From: a virus
Virus record (IMG/VR): IMGVR_UViG_3300030389_003518
Coordinates: 1 to 28,034 of that record
Reading direction: 5' to 3' (one strand)
DNA: 28,034 nt
In this document: piece after piece, positions 119 through 27,642 of the stretch
Layout: every line of letters starts with the position of its first letter
Position numbering within the stretch: the stretch's first letter is position 1
Translations under genes and position numbers: made by a program
Notes under the pieces: generated by a model
Told to the model about the DNA's origin: nothing
What the model saw: the letters and a program-made list of their open reading frames with translations, nothing else
Database searches by the model: none

Positions 119-343
119 ATGCTAAGTTACTTTATTTCCAAACCATCCGTGTATACACTTCCAGGTACATGGGAGAAGCAGCCATTGATAGGTCACGGTA
201 ACTACTCAGGTTTGCCACCGCAAGGACAATTAGTCGCTATTATATTGATACTATTATTTTTTATTACTGGTTACGGAGTATATATGGCTTTCGGTCCACC
301 AAATAAAAACTTAACTGATCCATGGGATGAACATGATGACTAA
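119..343 (+). CDS. psbN: PsbN-like photosystem II assembly protein, N-terminally extended
   Basis: The C-terminal half has the PsbN pattern: one hydrophobic helix (about residues 38-55, LVAIILILLFFITGYGVYMA) followed by AFGPPNKNLTDPWDEHDD, matching the family's AFGPPS-L-DPFE-HED tail. PsbN is known as a thylakoid protein needed for photosystem II assembly and repair rather than a core subunit. The ATG at 119 gives 74 residues, but cyanobacterial PsbN is about 43-46. A TTG at 212 would give 43 residues, the normal size, but has no well-spaced ribosome binding site. The extra 31 residues (containing YTLPGTWEKQPLIGHGNYSG) resemble nothing I recognise. Family assignment is fairly firm; the start is not. 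Confidence 0.8.
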   Translation: MLSYFISKPSVYTLPGTWEKQPLIGHGNYSGLPPQGQLVAIILILLFFITGYGVYMAFGPPNKNLTDPWDEHDD

Positions 344-16923: not shown

Positions 16924-17592
16924 TTAACCTAGAGCAATTGCAAAAACCATTGCACTGTTATCAGTGAAGGTCTGAGTAGCAACTGTGTCTCCACTCATTT
17001 TAATGGTTCCACCAGTGATTGTGGTGCCTGTAATATTTGTCGCTGTTGCATTAGTAAATAGAGCGTGAGTTCCTGTGACCGTCACTCCTGACACAATACC
17101 TTTACCTTCTACAGTTCCAGTAACTGTTAAATCCCCACCTACTCCTAAATCGTCAGTTATATCTAAATCGTCAGTAACAGTAAGATCTACAGCATTAATA
17201 TTAGTAAAGTTTGCGACTGTACCAGTTACTGTGGTTCCTGTAATGTTTGTAGCAGTTACGTTTGTAAATAAGGCACTGGTTCCTGTAACTGTAGTACCAG
17301 TGATATTAGTAACAGTCGCATTCGTAAATAATGCATGAGTACCTGTGACAGTTACTCCAGATATAGTCCCTTTACCTTCTATAGTTCCTGTAACTGTGGT
17401 ATCTCCACTAACAGTGCCACCTGTTCTAGGTAAGTAATAAACATTTAAATATGCTTTTGTACCTGATATTGTTAACTTTTTATTTTTTAACCCAGGATCA
17501 GGCTCAGATACATTAACAACCGTCAATAGATCATCTTCTGCTAATAAGAGACCTGCTTGTTCCTGTAATTCACTAATTCTACGATTTGCCAC
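16924..17592 (-). CDS. Repeat-containing fibre-like virion protein, 222 aa
   Basis: A short N-terminal domain (MANRRISELQEQAGLLLAED ... LKNKKLTISGTKAYL) leads into a Thr/Gly/Val/Asn-rich region with a 20-residue repeat (TVTGTHALFTNATVTNITGT) at residues 81-100, 101-120 and 171-190, plus part at 121-132. A larger unit starting GTIEGKG or GTVEGKG occurs at about 69 and 159. This is the look of a beta-helical phage fibre or baseplate spike, probably trimeric. It ends FTDNSAMVFAIALG. Host-receptor contact is an inference. The N-terminus resembles structural proteins I recall from cyanophages. Confidence 0.75.
   Translation of the reverse strand: MANRRISELQEQAGLLLAEDDLLTVVNVSEPDPGLKNKKLTISGTKAYLNVYYLPRTGGTVSGDTTVTGTIEGKGTISGVTVTGTHALFTNATVTNITGTTVTGTSALFTNVTATNITGTTVTGTVANFTNINAVDLTVTDDLDITDDLGVGGDLTVTGTVEGKGIVSGVTVTGTHALFTNATATNITGTTITGGTIKMSGDTVATQTFTDNSAMVFAIALG
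17023..17082 (-). repeat. Third 60-base coding repeat, separated from the tandem pair
   Basis: It encodes residues 171-190 (TVTGTHALFTNATATNITGT), nearly identical in protein to the first unit at 81-100. It lies after a 50-residue insert and the second GTVEGKG segment, so the larger GT-EGKG-SGV-TVTGTHALF block (about 35 residues) is itself duplicated. Confidence 0.7.
17233..17352 (-). repeat. Tandem 60-base coding repeats in the fibre-like gene (two units)
   Basis: Two adjacent 60-base units encode residues 81-100 and 101-120 of the fibre-like protein, each reading TVTGT-ALFTN-T-TNITGT. A third partial unit follows (residues 121-132, TVTGTVANFTNI). The bases differ at third positions, so these are old protein-level repeats rather than a recent DNA duplication. 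Confidence 0.7.
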
Positions 17593-20910: not shown

Positions 20911-21213
20911 ATGCTTGGTGCTAATAATTTCTTAGGAGACTTTGTTAAAGACGAATTGAAGTGTAGAGGTTTGTCTATAGAGGATTTTGGTGCTCCAATA
21001 AATAATGAAAATAATGACGTTCCTTTGTATGATATGTATAACAGAGGATTAGCAGCATGTGGACAAGGAATGAACAGAACAAACCTAGGACAGAGACCGG
21101 GACTGACAGGTTATATACCATCGATGGAAGAGGGGATGAGACAGGGAGCCTCTGTGAAACCGAAAACCCTCTTAATGGTATTAGACTCTCCGAATTCCAA
21201 GACGAAAAAATAG
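20911..21213 (+). CDS. Hypothetical protein, 100 aa
   Basis: Not recognised. MLGANNFLGDFVKDELKCRG begins a soluble protein with Gly/Asn-rich stretches (GLAACGQGMNRTNLGQRPGL) and a Lys/Thr end. It lies eight bases before the DUF3310-type gene, probably in one transcript. Confidence 0.55.
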   Translation: MLGANNFLGDFVKDELKCRGLSIEDFGAPINNENNDVPLYDMYNRGLAACGQGMNRTNLGQRPGLTGYIPSMEEGMRQGASVKPKTLLMVLDSPNSKTKK

Positions 21214-21221
21214 ATAAAACA

Positions 21222-21491
21222 ATGGAAGAATGTACTGATGGATTTTGTCCTATGCCATCTACTGGTCAACCTTTACATTTTTTTGATCCTGTAGATAAAC
21301 CAATTCACTACGCAGCAGGTTCTGTAGAGTGTATAGCTGCAATAGAAGCTCAACTTACGCCAGAAGAGTTCCGTGGTTATTTAAAGGGTAATGTAGCTAA
21401 ATATATGTGGCGTGAACGAAAAAAAGGTGGCAAAGAATCCCTGAAGAAAGCCAGATGGTATTTGAATAAACTGATTGAATTAGAGAGCTAA
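21222..21491 (+). CDS. DUF3310-type protein, 89 aa
   Basis: Start at ATG 21222 (MEECTDGFCPMPSTGQPLHF). The conserved block DKPIHYAAGSVECIAAIEAQ, then EEFRGYLKGNVAKYMWRERK and SLKKARWYLNKLIEL, is the DUF3310 pattern, found in T7-like and other phages and related to the nucleotide kinase family of T7 gp1.7. It probably takes part in phage nucleotide metabolism, consistent with the deaminase-like gene nearby. It runs 12 bases into the convergent NblA-like gene. The earlier in-frame ATG at 21057 would overlap the upstream gene and add unrelated sequence. Confidence 0.8.
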   Translation: MEECTDGFCPMPSTGQPLHFFDPVDKPIHYAAGSVECIAAIEAQLTPEEFRGYLKGNVAKYMWRERKKGGKESLKKARWYLNKLIELES

Positions 21492-21782
21492 AGGCTCATC
21501 CCCATCATCTTCATCAAACTCTTCATTCATAGCTTCTTGAGCTTTAGTAGCTAAATCAAGCAATTCAACATCTGTAGGAACATCAAAATTAATGTCCACA
21601 TTCTCTTCCGCCATCATAGATTTGAGTGCATATATTTCCATCAGACGCTGATGAAACAAAGATAACAACGCAACATAAAGTTGATCCCATGTCATGTCTT
21701 TTGCTCTCATCTCAGCTTTCCTCATAGAAAACTGATGCTCTAACGGCAGTTGGAATGCTTTAGGTTCAACTGAATTTTCCAT
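21480..21782 (-). CDS. NblA-like candidate phycobilisome-degradation adaptor, 100 aa
   Basis: Residues 11-57 line up by eye with the whole NblA helical hairpin: QLPLEHQFSMR matches the ELSLEQQFSIR signature of cyanobacterial NblA, then M-x-x-DQ and an L-x-L-x-x-Q-R second helix (VALLSLFHQRLMEIYALK). NblA binds phycobiliproteins and recruits Clp protease, dismantling the phycobilisome; it is known in freshwater cyanophages and has been reported in marine ones. This protein adds an acidic 40-residue C-terminus (MNEEFDEDDGDEPLAL) that ordinary NblA (about 55-65 aa) lacks. The match is short, so an unrelated helical protein is possible. Confidence 0.55.
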   Translation of the reverse strand: MENSVEPKAFQLPLEHQFSMRKAEMRAKDMTWDQLYVALLSLFHQRLMEIYALKSMMAEENVDINFDVPTDVELLDLATKAQEAMNEEFDEDDGDEPLAL

Positions 21783-21815: not shown

Positions 21816-22490
21816 CTATCTATCAAAATCACCATAGGTTCTCTCATAATATGTATCTAATTTCACTTCTGGAGAGACTCTTTTTGAATGATCTATATAG
21901 TCATTCATGAATTCAGTTAGAATATAAGGATTTATTTTCTTCTCTAGTTTTATCAAAGCCTCTATCTGACAAGGAAAAGCCTGATAACTATTCGCCGCTA
22001 ATAATAAAACCCCTGGAAAGGGAACTTCAGTTACATCTATTTCTCCCACAAATAAATTTGTTTCTTCTTTCCTTCTTTCCAATAAATGTCCTAATGCTCT
22101 ATGTTTTTCGTTATAAATCCATCTATTCATTTCTTCCGCCGCAGAGTGATACCGTTGTCCTTCTATATGATCAATGATGGTGCTGTATAGAAATGGTTTC
22201 CATCCTATTGAGTGTATGAAAGATATCAAAGCATTTTTCATTGATTGGTCTATTTTCAAATTCTGTTTATCCAGCTCTTCCTCAATTAGATGTATTTCAT
22301 ATAATAAATATTCCAAAGCTTTCTGCTTCGTTACACAGTGTCCTGATTTTACTGGAGAACCATCAGGGTAGAACTGCGTTCCATAACCAAGAGTATAAGG
22401 ATGCTTTCCAGTGACTGGATCCTCGACGGCTTTTTCTTTATATCCTTCGTATCGACAAATAATGTTAATTGCTTTAGTAAAATCTGCCAT
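21816..22490 (-). CDS. GH24 phage lysozyme (endolysin), 224 aa
   Basis: The GH24 site is near the N-terminus: Glu15 in ICRYEGYKEKA, Asp24 in VEDPVTG and Thr33 in YTLGYGT give the Glu-x8-Asp-x8-Thr triad of T4-type lysozymes, which cut the peptidoglycan glycan chain. The core continues with KQKALEYLLYEI and the SFIHSIGW helix, ending near LGHLLERRKEE at about residue 145. A C-terminal extension of roughly 75 residues (VPFPGVLLLAANSYQAFPCQ...) is unusual and not recognised. There is no signal peptide, so export needs a holin such as the one proposed at 12381-12821. Confidence 0.85.
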   Translation of the reverse strand: MADFTKAINIICRYEGYKEKAVEDPVTGKHPYTLGYGTQFYPDGSPVKSGHCVTKQKALEYLLYEIHLIEEELDKQNLKIDQSMKNALISFIHSIGWKPFLYSTIIDHIEGQRYHSAAEEMNRWIYNEKHRALGHLLERRKEETNLFVGEIDVTEVPFPGVLLLAANSYQAFPCQIEALIKLEKKINPYILTEFMNDYIDHSKRVSPEVKLDTYYERTYGDFDR

Positions 22491-22531: not shown

Positions 22532-22831
22532 TTACCATTTCACCTTATGAGACCAATATCTAGCAGAGAATATATCGGGTTTTGCATCCTGAGCATTATG
22601 TCTAGCGTAGTAAGATTTCTTACGAGCTTTATCTTTAGCTGTTTTAGGATTTTTACCTGCTCCTTTAACCCCTTGTTGTCCAAATCTTATGATCTTTTCT
22701 TTTCCATCTTTACATGCTTTTACTACATGCGATTTAGTGGGATGCTTAGGTGTTTTTTTAGGTTTATTACACGCCATCTTATCTTTCGCAAGTTTTGCGG
22801 CTGATGCTGCTTTTTTATACTTACTAGACAT
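22532..22831 (-). CDS. Small very basic protein, 99 aa
   Basis: Lysine makes up a very large fraction (MSSKYKKAASAAKLAKDKMA; CNKPKKTPKHPTKSHVVKAC; KNPKTAKDKARKKSYYARHN). The C-terminal 65 residues (KDGKEKIIRFGQQGVKGAGK ... FSARYWSHKVKW) look like a DUF-type domain I recall from marine phages. Two Cys flank the middle. It likely binds nucleic acid; a virion DNA-packing role is possible. It lies just downstream of the giant gene, seven bases away. Confidence 0.7.
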   Translation of the reverse strand: MSSKYKKAASAAKLAKDKMACNKPKKTPKHPTKSHVVKACKDGKEKIIRFGQQGVKGAGKNPKTAKDKARKKSYYARHNAQDAKPDIFSARYWSHKVKW

Positions 22832-22838
22832 TACTTAG

Positions 22839-25800
22839 TTAAAAGAAACCTGAAAAACCTGGAATACTCATTGATTGATAAGAATCTAGAAAACTACTTC
22901 CTTTTTTCTTGACATCCTCTTCCTCATCATAATCTAGGTTATTTGGTAGGTTAAACGAGAAAATACTATCCTCTTTTTCTTCTTCATCTTCATCATCTTC
23001 TTTCTTCTCTCCAAATAAACTAGCAGTGTTACCTTCAAATCTACTTATAGCTTCAAAAGCACCTAAAGGATTCTTTAAATCCTCATTCGATAAACCGAAG
23101 ACCTCTCCTATCGGTTTATTACTACTTAAATCGGATAATAGTTTCTGTTGTTCTGGATCAATATCTGGAAATACCTCTTCATAAAATTCTTCTTCAGTAC
23201 CCTCATATCCAGCATTTTGAAATGTTTTGAATAATTGTGTATCTGATTTAAGTTTAGCGTCTGTCTTATAATCCTCCTCTCTTTGTATATATGTAACTCC
23301 AAGTAATTCTTGAGTAGGTTTTTCACGTTTTTCATTCAAATATTTTATTTGTGCTCTCATGTCTGCTGCACTGCCAGTTCTAAAAGTCTCTGCTATGTAG
23401 TCTTTTAACTCATCTACACTACCTTTAAAATCTTCTAACCCGATTTCTTTTAATGCATATTCCCATTCATCTGCATTTTTTAAAGGGTCTAACCCTGCTA
23501 ATATGTCATCCGCATATTCATCAGGTTTGATAAATTCACCGAAAACATCCGATAAACGCACAGATTCATCTTCCAGTTTTGGAATTATATTTTCGTATAT
23601 ATGTTGTTTGACTAAACCTGGATTAATAATATCTTCGGCACCATCGAATTTTTTATCATTTCCATTAGCATCTTTATTGAATTGTCCTTTTACTTGATAA
23701 TGAAATCTAGCAAACTGATCTTTTTCACTAATATTAGCTCCATATTCATAAATTTTTTCTGCCCATGTTCCTAAAGCTGGGTTATTTGGATCAACTAACT
23801 GGTTGGGATTGTTTTTTGCAGCTTCCCAATCAGCACTAACTGTTTGCTTTTGTTTTGCATAATGTGCTTCTAAAGCTTTATCTCTTCCAGCCCCTCGAGG
23901 ATTGAAATAGAAATCACTATCAAAGGGTCTGTCTTGACTTATTTTCTGAATGTCTTCTAGATATTTTTTAGCTTGTGCTGATCCCAAGGATTGAACAGCA
24001 TTCAACATGGTCTGTGTTTGGAAAGGGTTCTGCTCTGTTGTACGTACATCTAAATATTCTACAAATTCATTCATAGATCTAGACTCATCAAATCTTGGTT
24101 TCAAATAATCATTAATATATTTTTCTGCAAAAGAACGTTGTATTTCAATTTCTTGTTCTGCCGCCTCCTCTGCCTCTCCCACTTCAAAACCTATAGTTAT
24201 GTAATTATCTTTAGATTCTGTATAGGCTTTTGAAAGAGAATCATCAAACCATTTCTGCCAGTTATAGACTACGTTATTAGATACGCCTGTTACTCCGCTT
24301 AATTGTTTTTCCAGAGTTTTTTTATCAAACCCAGAATCTTTTCCTAAGAAAGGTAAATATCCTCCTATACCTGAATCTCCTAGTAAGCTATCTGCAAGAC
24401 TACTGTTAACATCCATTATTTCCCCAAAAGTTCCAAACTCTCCCATTAAAGCTAATTCTTGTTCTTTAGCCTTTGCTTTTTTTAATTCATTAATAGTATC
24501 TTTTAAAACGTTCTGAGTTAATGCTCCAAATTTCTTTGTCTGTAAAATAGCTTCTTCACCAACGACTCCTGTTATGACATCTTCTAATTCTGTGATATAT
24601 GCACCCTCTTCTTTTAGCAGATTAAAAGCAGCTTTATCATCTTCATTCTGAGATTGTTGGAATATTAATAAAAATTCATCTGGATTGTCAATATTAAAAG
24701 TCGTACCAGCACTCTCGACAAATCTGTTAGCTGTTCCATCAGCCTTAGCTTTTTTAGCTTCTTCATATGCATCTTTTATATATTTAACACTATTTATCAT
24801 TTCTTCTGGATTATCGGGCTCTTCATCATCTATACCTGAAATATTCAACATCTTGTCTCTATAAAATTGAATTTCTGCTTCAGTAGGAGCTTCCTCATTA
24901 TATTTATCTGCTAAATCTGCTATCTTGGCTGCATTACCTCTTATGTTCCCACCAGGTTCTTTTGCTTGTCCATATCTCCATAGATAATATCCTCTTTCAG
25001 CATCTACCCCTGGTGTGCCATATCTTTCAGTAATGTCTATATCATCATCAGCTACAGCCTGATTCCAGTTCTCTTCTTCCGTAGGACCCTGATATTTTAA
25101 TTGTTGCGTTTTATAGTATTCAGGATCAAAGTCTCCTACTGGAGGTTTACCTTTTGTATTTGCATATCCTAATTCTTGACCATATCCAAAATCAAACTTT
25201 TCTAATTTCTCACCTCTGTAAAAATCTTTAAATACAGACTCTACATCTCCTAATATCTTATTAGCGTTTTCTTCACTAATCCCCTGATTAATAACCATTC
25301 TGTCTTTCATGGCTCTAATCTTATCTCTTTGATCGGTATAATCAGCTCCCCTAGTTTGAGTGGCAATATCTATTGCGTCTTTATATGCTGTCTCTTTAAC
25401 CCTTAAATTACGGTTATATTGCTTGTTAAAGTCATTTATTTTTTTTGCATACTCATTAAATATTGGATTAAATTCATTATATAATTGAACATTATTATTA
25501 TTATCATTGACTGTATTCATATTGTTTATCATTGCCTCTTTTGTCCCAGAAGGCACACCACGTTTTGCAAAGAAATAACCCCCTTTGTTGTAATTTTTAT
25601 TTCCTTTATTATTTAAATGTCTTGTATCAGCCCAGTCTTGAAGAACGTACGCATCGTCCTCATCAAGTGTGAAAAGAAAATCACCTTCTCTAGCAAGGAC
25701 ATCATTGATTCTCGCATTTATCATAGTTGATCTGTCCTTAACGTCGTGTTGACTCATATCCCGTGGATTCTTATGTCCGCTTTTAAATCCCGATCCGCCT

Positions 25801-26294
25801 TCTTTACTAATAATATCCGTAACATCTATAACCCAAGTAAAAGTTTCTTTTTTACCTAGGCGAGTGTCTCCATCATCATTTATCTCGTACTCTACATTTA
25901 CAGTACTTGATGGAATACCTTTAGGACTGGTAGCTAGATCATCTGAAGATGTTATGAAACCGTGAACTTTATCTCCAAAATTATACTGCCTACCGTCACT
26001 TGCTATCCCGGCCTCCCGATTTCCATTAATATATCTATAAATGCGATCACCAGTGTCAATTCTAGACATCTCGTATTTAACAAAAACACGGGCATTGGCA
26101 GCATTTTCTGGTAAGTTCTCATTAAATTGATTTTCATTCAAATCATCAGGCATGTCATATTCCATTTCCCCAGTAGAAGGATTATATTTAATATTATTCT
26201 CAACAAAAGAATTAGGTAAACTCTTAGATGCTTCTAAGGAATTCTTATAATTTTGTAAACTTTGTTCTAACTGTGCTCTAGATATTCGAGCCAT
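22839..26294 (-). CDS. Giant probable virion protein, 1151 aa
   Basis: Not recognised by motif. Very hydrophilic, rich in Asp, Glu, Asn, Lys and Tyr, with long helical and coiled-coil-like stretches (EEAAEQEIEIQRSFAEKYIN; VLKDTINELKKAKAKEQELA). A more beta-like N-terminal part (residues about 1-200, e.g. DTGDRIYRYINGNREAG) precedes them, and the end is highly acidic (GEKKEDDEDEEEKEDSIFSF). No membrane segment, Walker or transglycosylase motif is evident. Length, composition and position among virion genes suggest an internal virion or tail-associated protein. It is the largest gene of the window. Function unknown. Confidence 0.75.
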   Translation of the reverse strand: MARISRAQLEQSLQNYKNSLEASKSLPNSFVENNIKYNPSTGEMEYDMPDDLNENQFNENLPENAANARVFVKYEMSRIDTGDRIYRYINGNREAGIASDGRQYNFGDKVHGFITSSDDLATSPKGIPSSTVNVEYEINDDGDTRLGKKETFTWVIDVTDIISKEGGSGFKSGHKNPRDMSQHDVKDRSTMINARINDVLAREGDFLFTLDEDDAYVLQDWADTRHLNNKGNKNYNKGGYFFAKRGVPSGTKEAMINNMNTVNDNNNNVQLYNEFNPIFNEYAKKINDFNKQYNRNLRVKETAYKDAIDIATQTRGADYTDQRDKIRAMKDRMVINQGISEENANKILGDVESVFKDFYRGEKLEKFDFGYGQELGYANTKGKPPVGDFDPEYYKTQQLKYQGPTEEENWNQAVADDDIDITERYGTPGVDAERGYYLWRYGQAKEPGGNIRGNAAKIADLADKYNEEAPTEAEIQFYRDKMLNISGIDDEEPDNPEEMINSVKYIKDAYEEAKKAKADGTANRFVESAGTTFNIDNPDEFLLIFQQSQNEDDKAAFNLLKEEGAYITELEDVITGVVGEEAILQTKKFGALTQNVLKDTINELKKAKAKEQELALMGEFGTFGEIMDVNSSLADSLLGDSGIGGYLPFLGKDSGFDKKTLEKQLSGVTGVSNNVVYNWQKWFDDSLSKAYTESKDNYITIGFEVGEAEEAAEQEIEIQRSFAEKYINDYLKPRFDESRSMNEFVEYLDVRTTEQNPFQTQTMLNAVQSLGSAQAKKYLEDIQKISQDRPFDSDFYFNPRGAGRDKALEAHYAKQKQTVSADWEAAKNNPNQLVDPNNPALGTWAEKIYEYGANISEKDQFARFHYQVKGQFNKDANGNDKKFDGAEDIINPGLVKQHIYENIIPKLEDESVRLSDVFGEFIKPDEYADDILAGLDPLKNADEWEYALKEIGLEDFKGSVDELKDYIAETFRTGSAADMRAQIKYLNEKREKPTQELLGVTYIQREEDYKTDAKLKSDTQLFKTFQNAGYEGTEEEFYEEVFPDIDPEQQKLLSDLSSNKPIGEVFGLSNEDLKNPLGAFEAISRFEGNTASLFGEKKEDDEDEEEKEDSIFSFNLPNNLDYDEEEDVKKKGSSFLDSYQSMSIPGFSGFF

Positions 26295-26307: not shown

Positions 26308-26646
26308 CTACGTATATATTATTATATCTTTTACATCATCAGTCATCCATGCTTTTATAGCTTCTAGTTTAGAAGAACAAAAATACTCTTTAGTTCTAAA
26401 CCAATCTTCCATGTTCTGGCTTCCTTTATCTGCATTACATCTTCTACATGCAGGTACTAAGTTGTATCGATTATTAGATCCGGATTTAAATTTTGGAACT
26501 ATGTGGTCAAGAGATGTAGCCGTTTCCTCACAATAGCCACATTTGTGGTTCCAGGCTTCGTATATTGATTGTCTATATCGTCGTTTTGCTAGTCGTGGAG
26601 AGAGTTCTAAGAGCAGGGTTAAGGGTTCCTGTTCATCTCTAAACAT
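26308..26646 (-). CDS. HNH endonuclease, 112 aa
   Basis: CGYCEETATSLDHIVPKFKS (about residues 36-55) gives the Cys-x2-Cys and Asp-His of the HNH site, and NNRYNLVPACRRCNADKGSQ (about 57-76) the asparagine and second Cys-x2-Cys. This is the complete HNH_5/Zn-type domain. The length is normal for a free-standing phage homing endonuclease. It sits 13 bases upstream of the giant gene and is the first gene of this leftward group, so it probably inserted between promoter and structural gene. Confidence 0.87.
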   Translation of the reverse strand: MFRDEQEPLTLLLELSPRLAKRRYRQSIYEAWNHKCGYCEETATSLDHIVPKFKSGSNNRYNLVPACRRCNADKGSQNMEDWFRTKEYFCSSKLEAIKAWMTDDVKDIIIYT

Positions 26647-27056: not shown

Positions 27057-27192
27057 ATGCCATTTGATATAAACCAACCGCAAAAGTTAGGATAGAACCC
27101 CATCCAATAATCTTAGGTATGTATCTAATTGATATTGGGCGTTTATATACTTCCATGACATCGTGGTAGGACTGTGACATGGCATCGCTCAT
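27055..27192 (-). CDS. 45-aa single-span membrane protein
   Basis: MSDAMSQSYHDVMEVYKRPI leads to a transmembrane segment near IIGWGSILTFAVGLY, ending QMA. Its ATG overlaps the stop of the first Hli gene as TAATG, and its own stop lies against the bidirectional terminator. A short membrane protein in a photosynthesis cluster suggests a thylakoid location, but I recognise no known subunit. Confidence 0.6.
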   Translation of the reverse strand: MSDAMSQSYHDVMEVYKRPISIRYIPKIIGWGSILTFAVGLYQMA

Positions 27193-27323
27193 TAGAAGAT
27201 ACCGAAGAACATATGTCCTGTAAGAAGGTCACTTGTTGCTGCTGCAACTAGACCGAGCATGGCTAATCTGCCATTCCATTTTTCAGCCCAGACTTTCTGA
27301 GACTCTAAATTTTTGTTTTTCAT
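27192..27323 (-). CDS. hli: High-light-inducible protein (Hli), 43 aa
   Basis: The chlorophyll-binding motif is complete: WAEKWNGRLAMLG holds the Glu and Arg of E-x2-NGR-x-AM, the ion pair that binds chlorophyll in the LHC/ELIP superfamily. One helix (about residues 20-36) is followed by LLTGHMFFGIF, a variant of the usual TGQIIPGIF end. Hli proteins sit in the thylakoid, bind chlorophyll and dissipate excess light energy near photosystem II. The start MKNKNLE is preferred over the longer frame, since its ATG overlaps the next gene's stop as TAATG. Confidence 0.88.
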   Translation of the reverse strand: MKNKNLESQKVWAEKWNGRLAMLGLVAAATSDLLTGHMFFGIF

Positions 27324-27514
27324 TAGAATATACCGGGAATAATTTGACCTGTAGTTACGTATGCACCGAGAAGAGCAATAAAACCTATCATTGCCCATCT
27401 TCCGTTTACTTTTTCTGCATCTTCTGGATAGCTAGTATAATTAGTATCCACAAGTACTGCTGGTTCAGTAGGAAAAATATTTTGCCTACCACCGCTTTCT
27501 GTGATTTGAGTCAT
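27323..27514 (-). CDS. hli: High-light-inducible protein (Hli), 63 aa
   Basis: MTQITESGGRQNIFPTEPAV begins an N-terminal stroma-facing arm of about 35 residues. EKVNGRWAMIG gives the E-x2-NGR-x-AM chlorophyll site, and AYVTTGQIIPGIF the family's C-terminal end. It is the longest of the three Hli genes, and the arm (up to DTNYTSYPED) is not present in the other two. It is 20 bases downstream of the third Hli gene and overlaps the first by one base. The whole trio is transcribed towards the terminator at 27029. Confidence 0.9.
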   Translation of the reverse strand: MTQITESGGRQNIFPTEPAVLVDTNYTSYPEDAEKVNGRWAMIGFIALLGAYVTTGQIIPGIF

Positions 27515-27534
27515 TTTAAAATTAAAGTTACAAA

Positions 27535-27642
27535 TTAAAATATACCTGGAATGATCTGTCCAGTTGTTGCATATGCACCGAGAGCTGCGACAAAACCTAG
27601 CATTGCTGCCCATCCATTAAATCTTTCTGCTTCAGGAGTCAT
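27535..27642 (-). CDS. hli: Minimal high-light-inducible protein (Hli), 35 aa
   Basis: MTPEAERFNGWAAMLGFVAA then LGAYATTGQIIPGIF: a whole Hli protein of only 35 residues, missed by a minimum-length cutoff of about 60 residues. The E-x2-NG motif is kept but the Arg normally following NG is Trp, so the Glu-Arg ion pair of classical Hli proteins cannot form the same way; similar phage forms exist as far as I recall. It shares the TTGQIIPGIF end with the second Hli gene, so recent duplication is likely. The upstream gap holds an imperfect inverted repeat AAGTAA/TTACTT (27647-27652 and 27660-27665). Confidence 0.88.
   Translation of the reverse strand: MTPEAERFNGWAAMLGFVAALGAYATTGQIIPGIF

Follow-up and report, generated by a model that had tools for sequence, protein, structure and literature searches.

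Phage-encoded NblA proteins

NblA is an adaptor of the ClpC protease that acts on the rods and the core of phycobilisomes (PMC7966870). The cyanobacterial protein (PF04485; 1OJH, Anabaena PCC 7120) comprises about 60 amino acids, consists of a helical hairpin alone and terminates in a K53-H-x-W-G-L end. Phages also carry NblA homologues, and expression of a phage NblA causes phycobilin loss (PMC9602691); hitherto, such genes have been treated as auxiliary genes of some cyanophages. The freshwater phages Ma-LMM01, MaMV-DC and PaV-LD, which belong to phage groups other than the one considered here, encode NblA proteins that reach 45–52 bits with the Pfam NblA model and lack the C-terminal extension described below (L262, L263). 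The NblA proteins of the marine phages S-TIP37, S-TIM5 and S-SCSM1 diverge from the Pfam model to a similar or greater degree than the protein described here and are devoid of the extension and the acidic tail that follows it; in S-SCSM1 the protein has only 54 residues and its gene is located among virion genes, and in S-TIP37 the match lies in the DNA-replication region. A survey from 2017 (PMC5332604) listed nblA for the PaV-LD, Ma-LMM01 and MIS-PhV1B groups and credited the S-EIV1 group with hli and ptoX alone, and an S-EIV1-like prophage was reported in S. elongatus UTEX 3055 (PMC9239245). In these two papers, the ones most relevant to both S-EIV1 and NblA within this comparison, NblA is not reported for the S-EIV1 lineage; priority is not certain. 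Phage NblA as such is already known, and what appears new here is the version of the S-EIV1 lineage with its changed end and its extension, which was overlooked because its scores fall under annotation cut-offs.

An NblA-related gene in an S-EIV1-type phage

The window, that is the whole stretch of 28,034 nucleotides analysed here (IMG/VR record IMGVR_UViG_3300030389_003518; GC content 35.6%), contains on the minus strand an open reading frame of 100 amino acids with an ATG start (21480..21782). Pfam NblA (PF04485) matches residues 11–57 of the encoded protein with profile positions 1–47 of 50 and without gaps (E 0.0015), the 19.4 bits staying below the curated cut-off of 25 bits, and in a search of the whole record this reading frame is the single place recovered by the NblA model (E 3.9e-5). 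The profile match reproduces exactly the alignment by eye of residues 11–57 with the NblA hairpin from which the first-pass annotation had proposed an NblA-like adaptor. Comparison of profiles and prediction of the fold, which had been put forward as the checks that could overturn this proposal, yielded an NblA match and a two-helix hairpin.

How should a score below the cut-off be read? With the same Pfam model the accepted phage proteins of Ma-LMM01, PaV-LD and S-TIP37 obtain 52, 45 and 28 bits, respectively, and those of S-SCSM1, S-TIM5 and Syn5 are not matched, so that a low score is usual for divergent phage NblA. With a hidden Markov model of collected NblA sequences the relatives of the window protein reach 23.5–29.3 bits, as compared to 15.8 bits for S-TIP37 and 16.2 bits for a host gene (in genome G184). 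The NblA of S-TIP37 reportedly acts during infection, as described in a paper of 2025. The NblA of S-SCSM1 and its relatives was itself detected only by a distant-homology search (PMC9602691). As a side observation, the S-TIP37 match (MH540083.1, 12521–12661) lies between the exonuclease gene and STIP37_19 at a place where no gene is annotated, and three small cyanobacterial genomes (G150, G186 and G271; loci L271–L273) contain NblA matches interrupted by several stop codons, which are possibly decayed nblA copies.

A first set of homologues from IMG/VR comprised 42 close ones; a broader set that took in divergent ones comprised 119, and 80 of these were retained. Among 22 diverse relatives in the alignment 19 match Pfam NblA (best E 2.3e-5), and when the profile of the 22 members was compared with all solved chains, Anabaena NblA (1ojh) came out on top with an E value of 0.00033, followed by the next chain at 0.51. 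In the reverse direction, a search of 292 cyanobacterial genomes with the family profile yielded eight places at E <= 0.001, where about 0.3 false positives are expected, and all eight overlap with PF04485 places in the same genomes, which means that only NblA genes were recovered. Alignment of the phage family with the collected NblA sequences by HHalign, a comparison of two profiles, gave a probability of 96.3% and a score of 50.4 over 57 gapless columns (residues 3–59), as opposed to at most 19.6 in 100 column-shuffled versions and 14.9 for the reversed alignment. Taken from the sequences, residues 11–57 are very probably homologous to NblA.

This breadth of matching also bears on the proposal that the protein is a tail assembly chaperone or another helical virion-assembly protein that resembles NblA by chance. 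The gene does lie within a presumably late gene block, and three divergent members match PHROG 2992, a family of tail assembly chaperones (E 0.0045–0.034). Only 3 of the 22 relatives do so, however, and the aligned span includes part of the acidic tail. With 19 of the 22 matching NblA, and NblA as the sole family recovered in the reverse search, a chance likeness is improbable. The matches to PHROG 2992, DUF4030 and HRD1 were set aside as weak, confined to few members or arising from acidic or helical composition.

Several searches remained negative within their scope. A tblastn search of phages with a 48-residue fragment of Anabaena NblA gave no matches; the fragment is considered an under-powered query because full-length Microcystis NblA recovered Ma-LMM01 and others. 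NblA chains were absent from the Foldseek and VIA-align results, whether the query was the full model or only the hairpin, a two-helix model of 56 residues being too small to discriminate. Scanning GTDB genome contigs with the family pattern revealed no relative and hence no prophage copy.

Hairpin, conserved extension and acidic tail

For structure prediction the alignment was made from IMG/VR loci, with the S-EIV1 row left out. AlphaFold2 predicts for the full protein three helices (residues 14–28, 32–59 and 71–88; mean pLDDT 72), of which the first two form in the monomer the helix-loop-helix hairpin expected of NblA, and residues 8–63 modelled alone also give a hairpin with a mean pLDDT of 85 and values above 90 for most of the core. 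The NblA-homologous hairpin as delimited by Pfam, HHalign and the predicted helices corresponds to residues 11–58 (21609..21752, minus strand).

The first-pass annotation had described everything behind the hairpin as an acidic tail of 40 residues. According to the pN/pS values and the invariant positions this region has two parts: about residues 59–78 are conserved and contain no acidic run, and the description holds for about residues 79–100, which are acidic and change fast. This extension (residues 59–78; 21549..21608, minus strand) replaces the C-terminal end of NblA in the alignment. It includes six (E60, D67, P69, E73, L74 and L77) of the 26 positions that are invariant among 48 distinct sequences, its pN/pS of 0.13 equals that of the hairpin (0.13), and the third predicted helix begins inside it. 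The variable tail (residues 79–100; 21483..21548, minus strand) has a pN/pS of 0.38, and the pLDDT drops below 50 at the C-terminal end of the protein. The gene is under purifying selection, and with 95–106 residues the family proteins are longer than NblA with its about 60 residues and its hairpin alone.

In the clade of the window the tail ends with EPLAL, EPLAI or EPLSI, elsewhere mostly with xxPF; in many relatives the last residues are DDDDLQPF, EEYIPF or similar, and in one clade PFFI or PFFG. The single-stranded DNA-binding proteins (SSBs) of S-EIV1 (KJ410740.1, 29657–30466) and of three relatives (L281–L283) end with DEPF, DEIPF, EPPF and KEPF. The similar look of SSB tips and NblA-related tails in the same phages is a weak lead. 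It could be imagined that the acidic tail acts as an SSB-like tip and that the hairpin serves merely for dimerisation, as many relatives share the terminal PF with the SSBs of S-EIV1 and its relatives. The terminal phenylalanine is not conserved, though, the tail evolves fast and acidic tails are common; since the clade of the window is devoid of a terminal phenylalanine, this idea is kept as a minor rival that we regard as very improbable.

An altered docking end

The phage family retains L7, L9, E10, Q12, F13, R16, M25, Q29, L34, L37, Y38 and Q40 of NblA (Anabaena numbering), which constitute the N-terminal half of the hairpin plus the turn. At the other end, K53, W56, G57 and L58 are missing in all 48 variants. 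K53-H54-x-W56-G57-L58 is nearly invariant in the NblA rows of the alignment, which are weighted to Nostocales and Microcystis, and opposite these positions the phage proteins contain A/Q/E, D/E/N/A, E, N, I/V and E/D, respectively. The charge of the docking end is thereby reversed, positions 53 and 54 being acidic or neutral in 48/48 variants. L51 and K53 are said to be implicated in phycobilisome binding in Anabaena. It is mainly on account of the charge reversal that phycobilisome binding is not asserted here and that the protein is not filed as NblA proper. WGL is also missing in PaV-LD, S-TIP37 and some host paralogues, several of which still have a basic residue at position 53 or next to it.

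These changes may indicate that an NblA-derived hairpin has been re-used, as an adaptor or scaffold that would have left the phycobilisome for another target, be it a virion, lysis or replication protein or a different host protein. For such a re-use speak the docking end, altered and charge-reversed in every variant (48/48), and the newly acquired conserved extension, on which purifying selection is as strong as on the hairpin. Conversely, the N-terminal half of the hairpin has kept the NblA pattern, with 12 shared residues from L7 to Q40, and the NblA of PaV-LD, which is reported to be active (PMC9602691), is likewise without WGL. We consider a re-use possible but not likely. That the hairpin has become a phage-made Clp adaptor, retargeted and produced late from a core gene, which would deliver some other protein, of the host or of the phage, to ClpC, appears unlikely.

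A core gene next to lysozyme

Directly upstream of the NblA-related gene, on the same strand, a phage lysozyme is encoded (21816..22490, minus strand; PF00959, E 5e-19), preceded in the same block by a small basic protein (22532..22831, minus strand), a large protein of 1151 residues (22839..26294, minus strand), both syntenic in S-EIV1 and other relatives, and at the head of the block an HNH endonuclease (26308..26646, minus strand; PF01844, E 7e-9), which occupies the same place in S-EIV1. From the other side a convergent DUF3310 gene (21057..21491, plus strand; PF11753, E 3.5e-18) overlaps the 3' end of the NblA-related gene by 12 bases. The lysozyme gene precedes the NblA-related gene on the same strand in 76/76 testable related loci and the DUF3310 gene is convergent with it in 66/66, not counting the copy in the window, where the order is the same. 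Using lysozymes of the lineage as bait, the NblA-related gene was found immediately downstream in all 75 loci with enough flank, the set being the best 80 lysozyme matches. Both sets of loci overlap and include near-identical phages, and the counts are therefore counts of loci and not of independent events.

HNH endonuclease, large protein, small basic protein, lysozyme, NblA-related protein, DUF3310 protein and dCTP deaminase form a block common to the window and S-EIV1, and the window belongs to the S-EIV1-like cyanophage lineage. The direct orthologue in the isolate, Synechococcus phage S-EIV1, is AHV82245.1, annotated as hypothetical; it has the same neighbours and 55% identity over residues 1–78, and its tail ends with ELAPF instead of EPLAL. 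In this lineage, which is widespread in fresh water and in the sea, the NblA-related gene behaves as a core gene and not as a sporadic auxiliary gene, being present in every testable member among the best 80 lysozyme matches. A universal core gene adjoining lysozyme in a late block, unlike a sporadic auxiliary gene, would also suit the re-use of the hairpin discussed above; against this it can be held that the nblA of S-SCSM1 is also located among virion genes.

A possible role in antenna breakdown

On balance, the analysis somewhat favours an NblA-related adaptor with an NblA-like role in dismantling the antenna, encoded by a core gene of the S-EIV1-type lineage. Since the gene sits beside the lysozyme gene, the adaptor would be produced late in infection. 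It may dimerise through the hairpin, as NblA does, grip a component of the phycobilisome and carry it to the ClpC protease of the host. Breakdown of the antenna would free amino acids and reduce light input while the products of the phage psbN and hli genes might support the photosystems. Standing in place of the C-terminal end of NblA, the extension and the acidic tail could provide another partner face or a different affinity.

In favour of the adaptor role count the homology to NblA, the predicted hairpin, the known action of NblA and of expressed phage NblA on the antenna pigments, and the scores of the family, which equal or exceed those of other phage NblA proteins such as S-TIP37 on the same models. 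Against it count the Pfam score of the window protein below the cut-off, the loss of the docking end and the length of 95–106 residues, and a universal gene in a late block fits a role in the virion or in lysis as well. Moreover, the phage is marine, and a Prochlorococcus host, if it had one, would offer no phycobilisome for degradation; the S-EIV1 isolate infects Synechococcus. Should the adaptor be active on the antenna, infection by the S-EIV1-type lineage would regularly include dismantling of the antenna; should it not be, the family would exemplify the natural retargeting of a proteolysis adaptor. The S-EIV1 isolate and the prophage reported in UTEX 3055 make the role directly testable.

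Photosynthesis genes and a repeat protein in the window

In addition to the NblA-like gene, psbA, hli and psbN had been claimed for this phage. Profile searches of the 28-kb record, which is a fragment, did not find psbA; psbN was confirmed (236–340, plus strand; PF02468, E 2.3e-17) and is an unusual photosynthesis gene for a phage of the S-EIV1-type lineage. As to hli, three adjacent and partly overlapping hli-like reading frames are present on the minus strand (27192–27398, 27323–27613 and 27535–27642), all scoring below the Pfam cut-off and all containing a helix with an NGR-AM-like or NGWAAM motif (27192–27642); they may form a small tandem array of high-light-inducible genes. The window also encodes a protein of 222 residues made for the most part of TGT-rich repeats (NITGTTVTGT...; 16924–17592, minus strand) that resembles phage fibre or virion repeat proteins.
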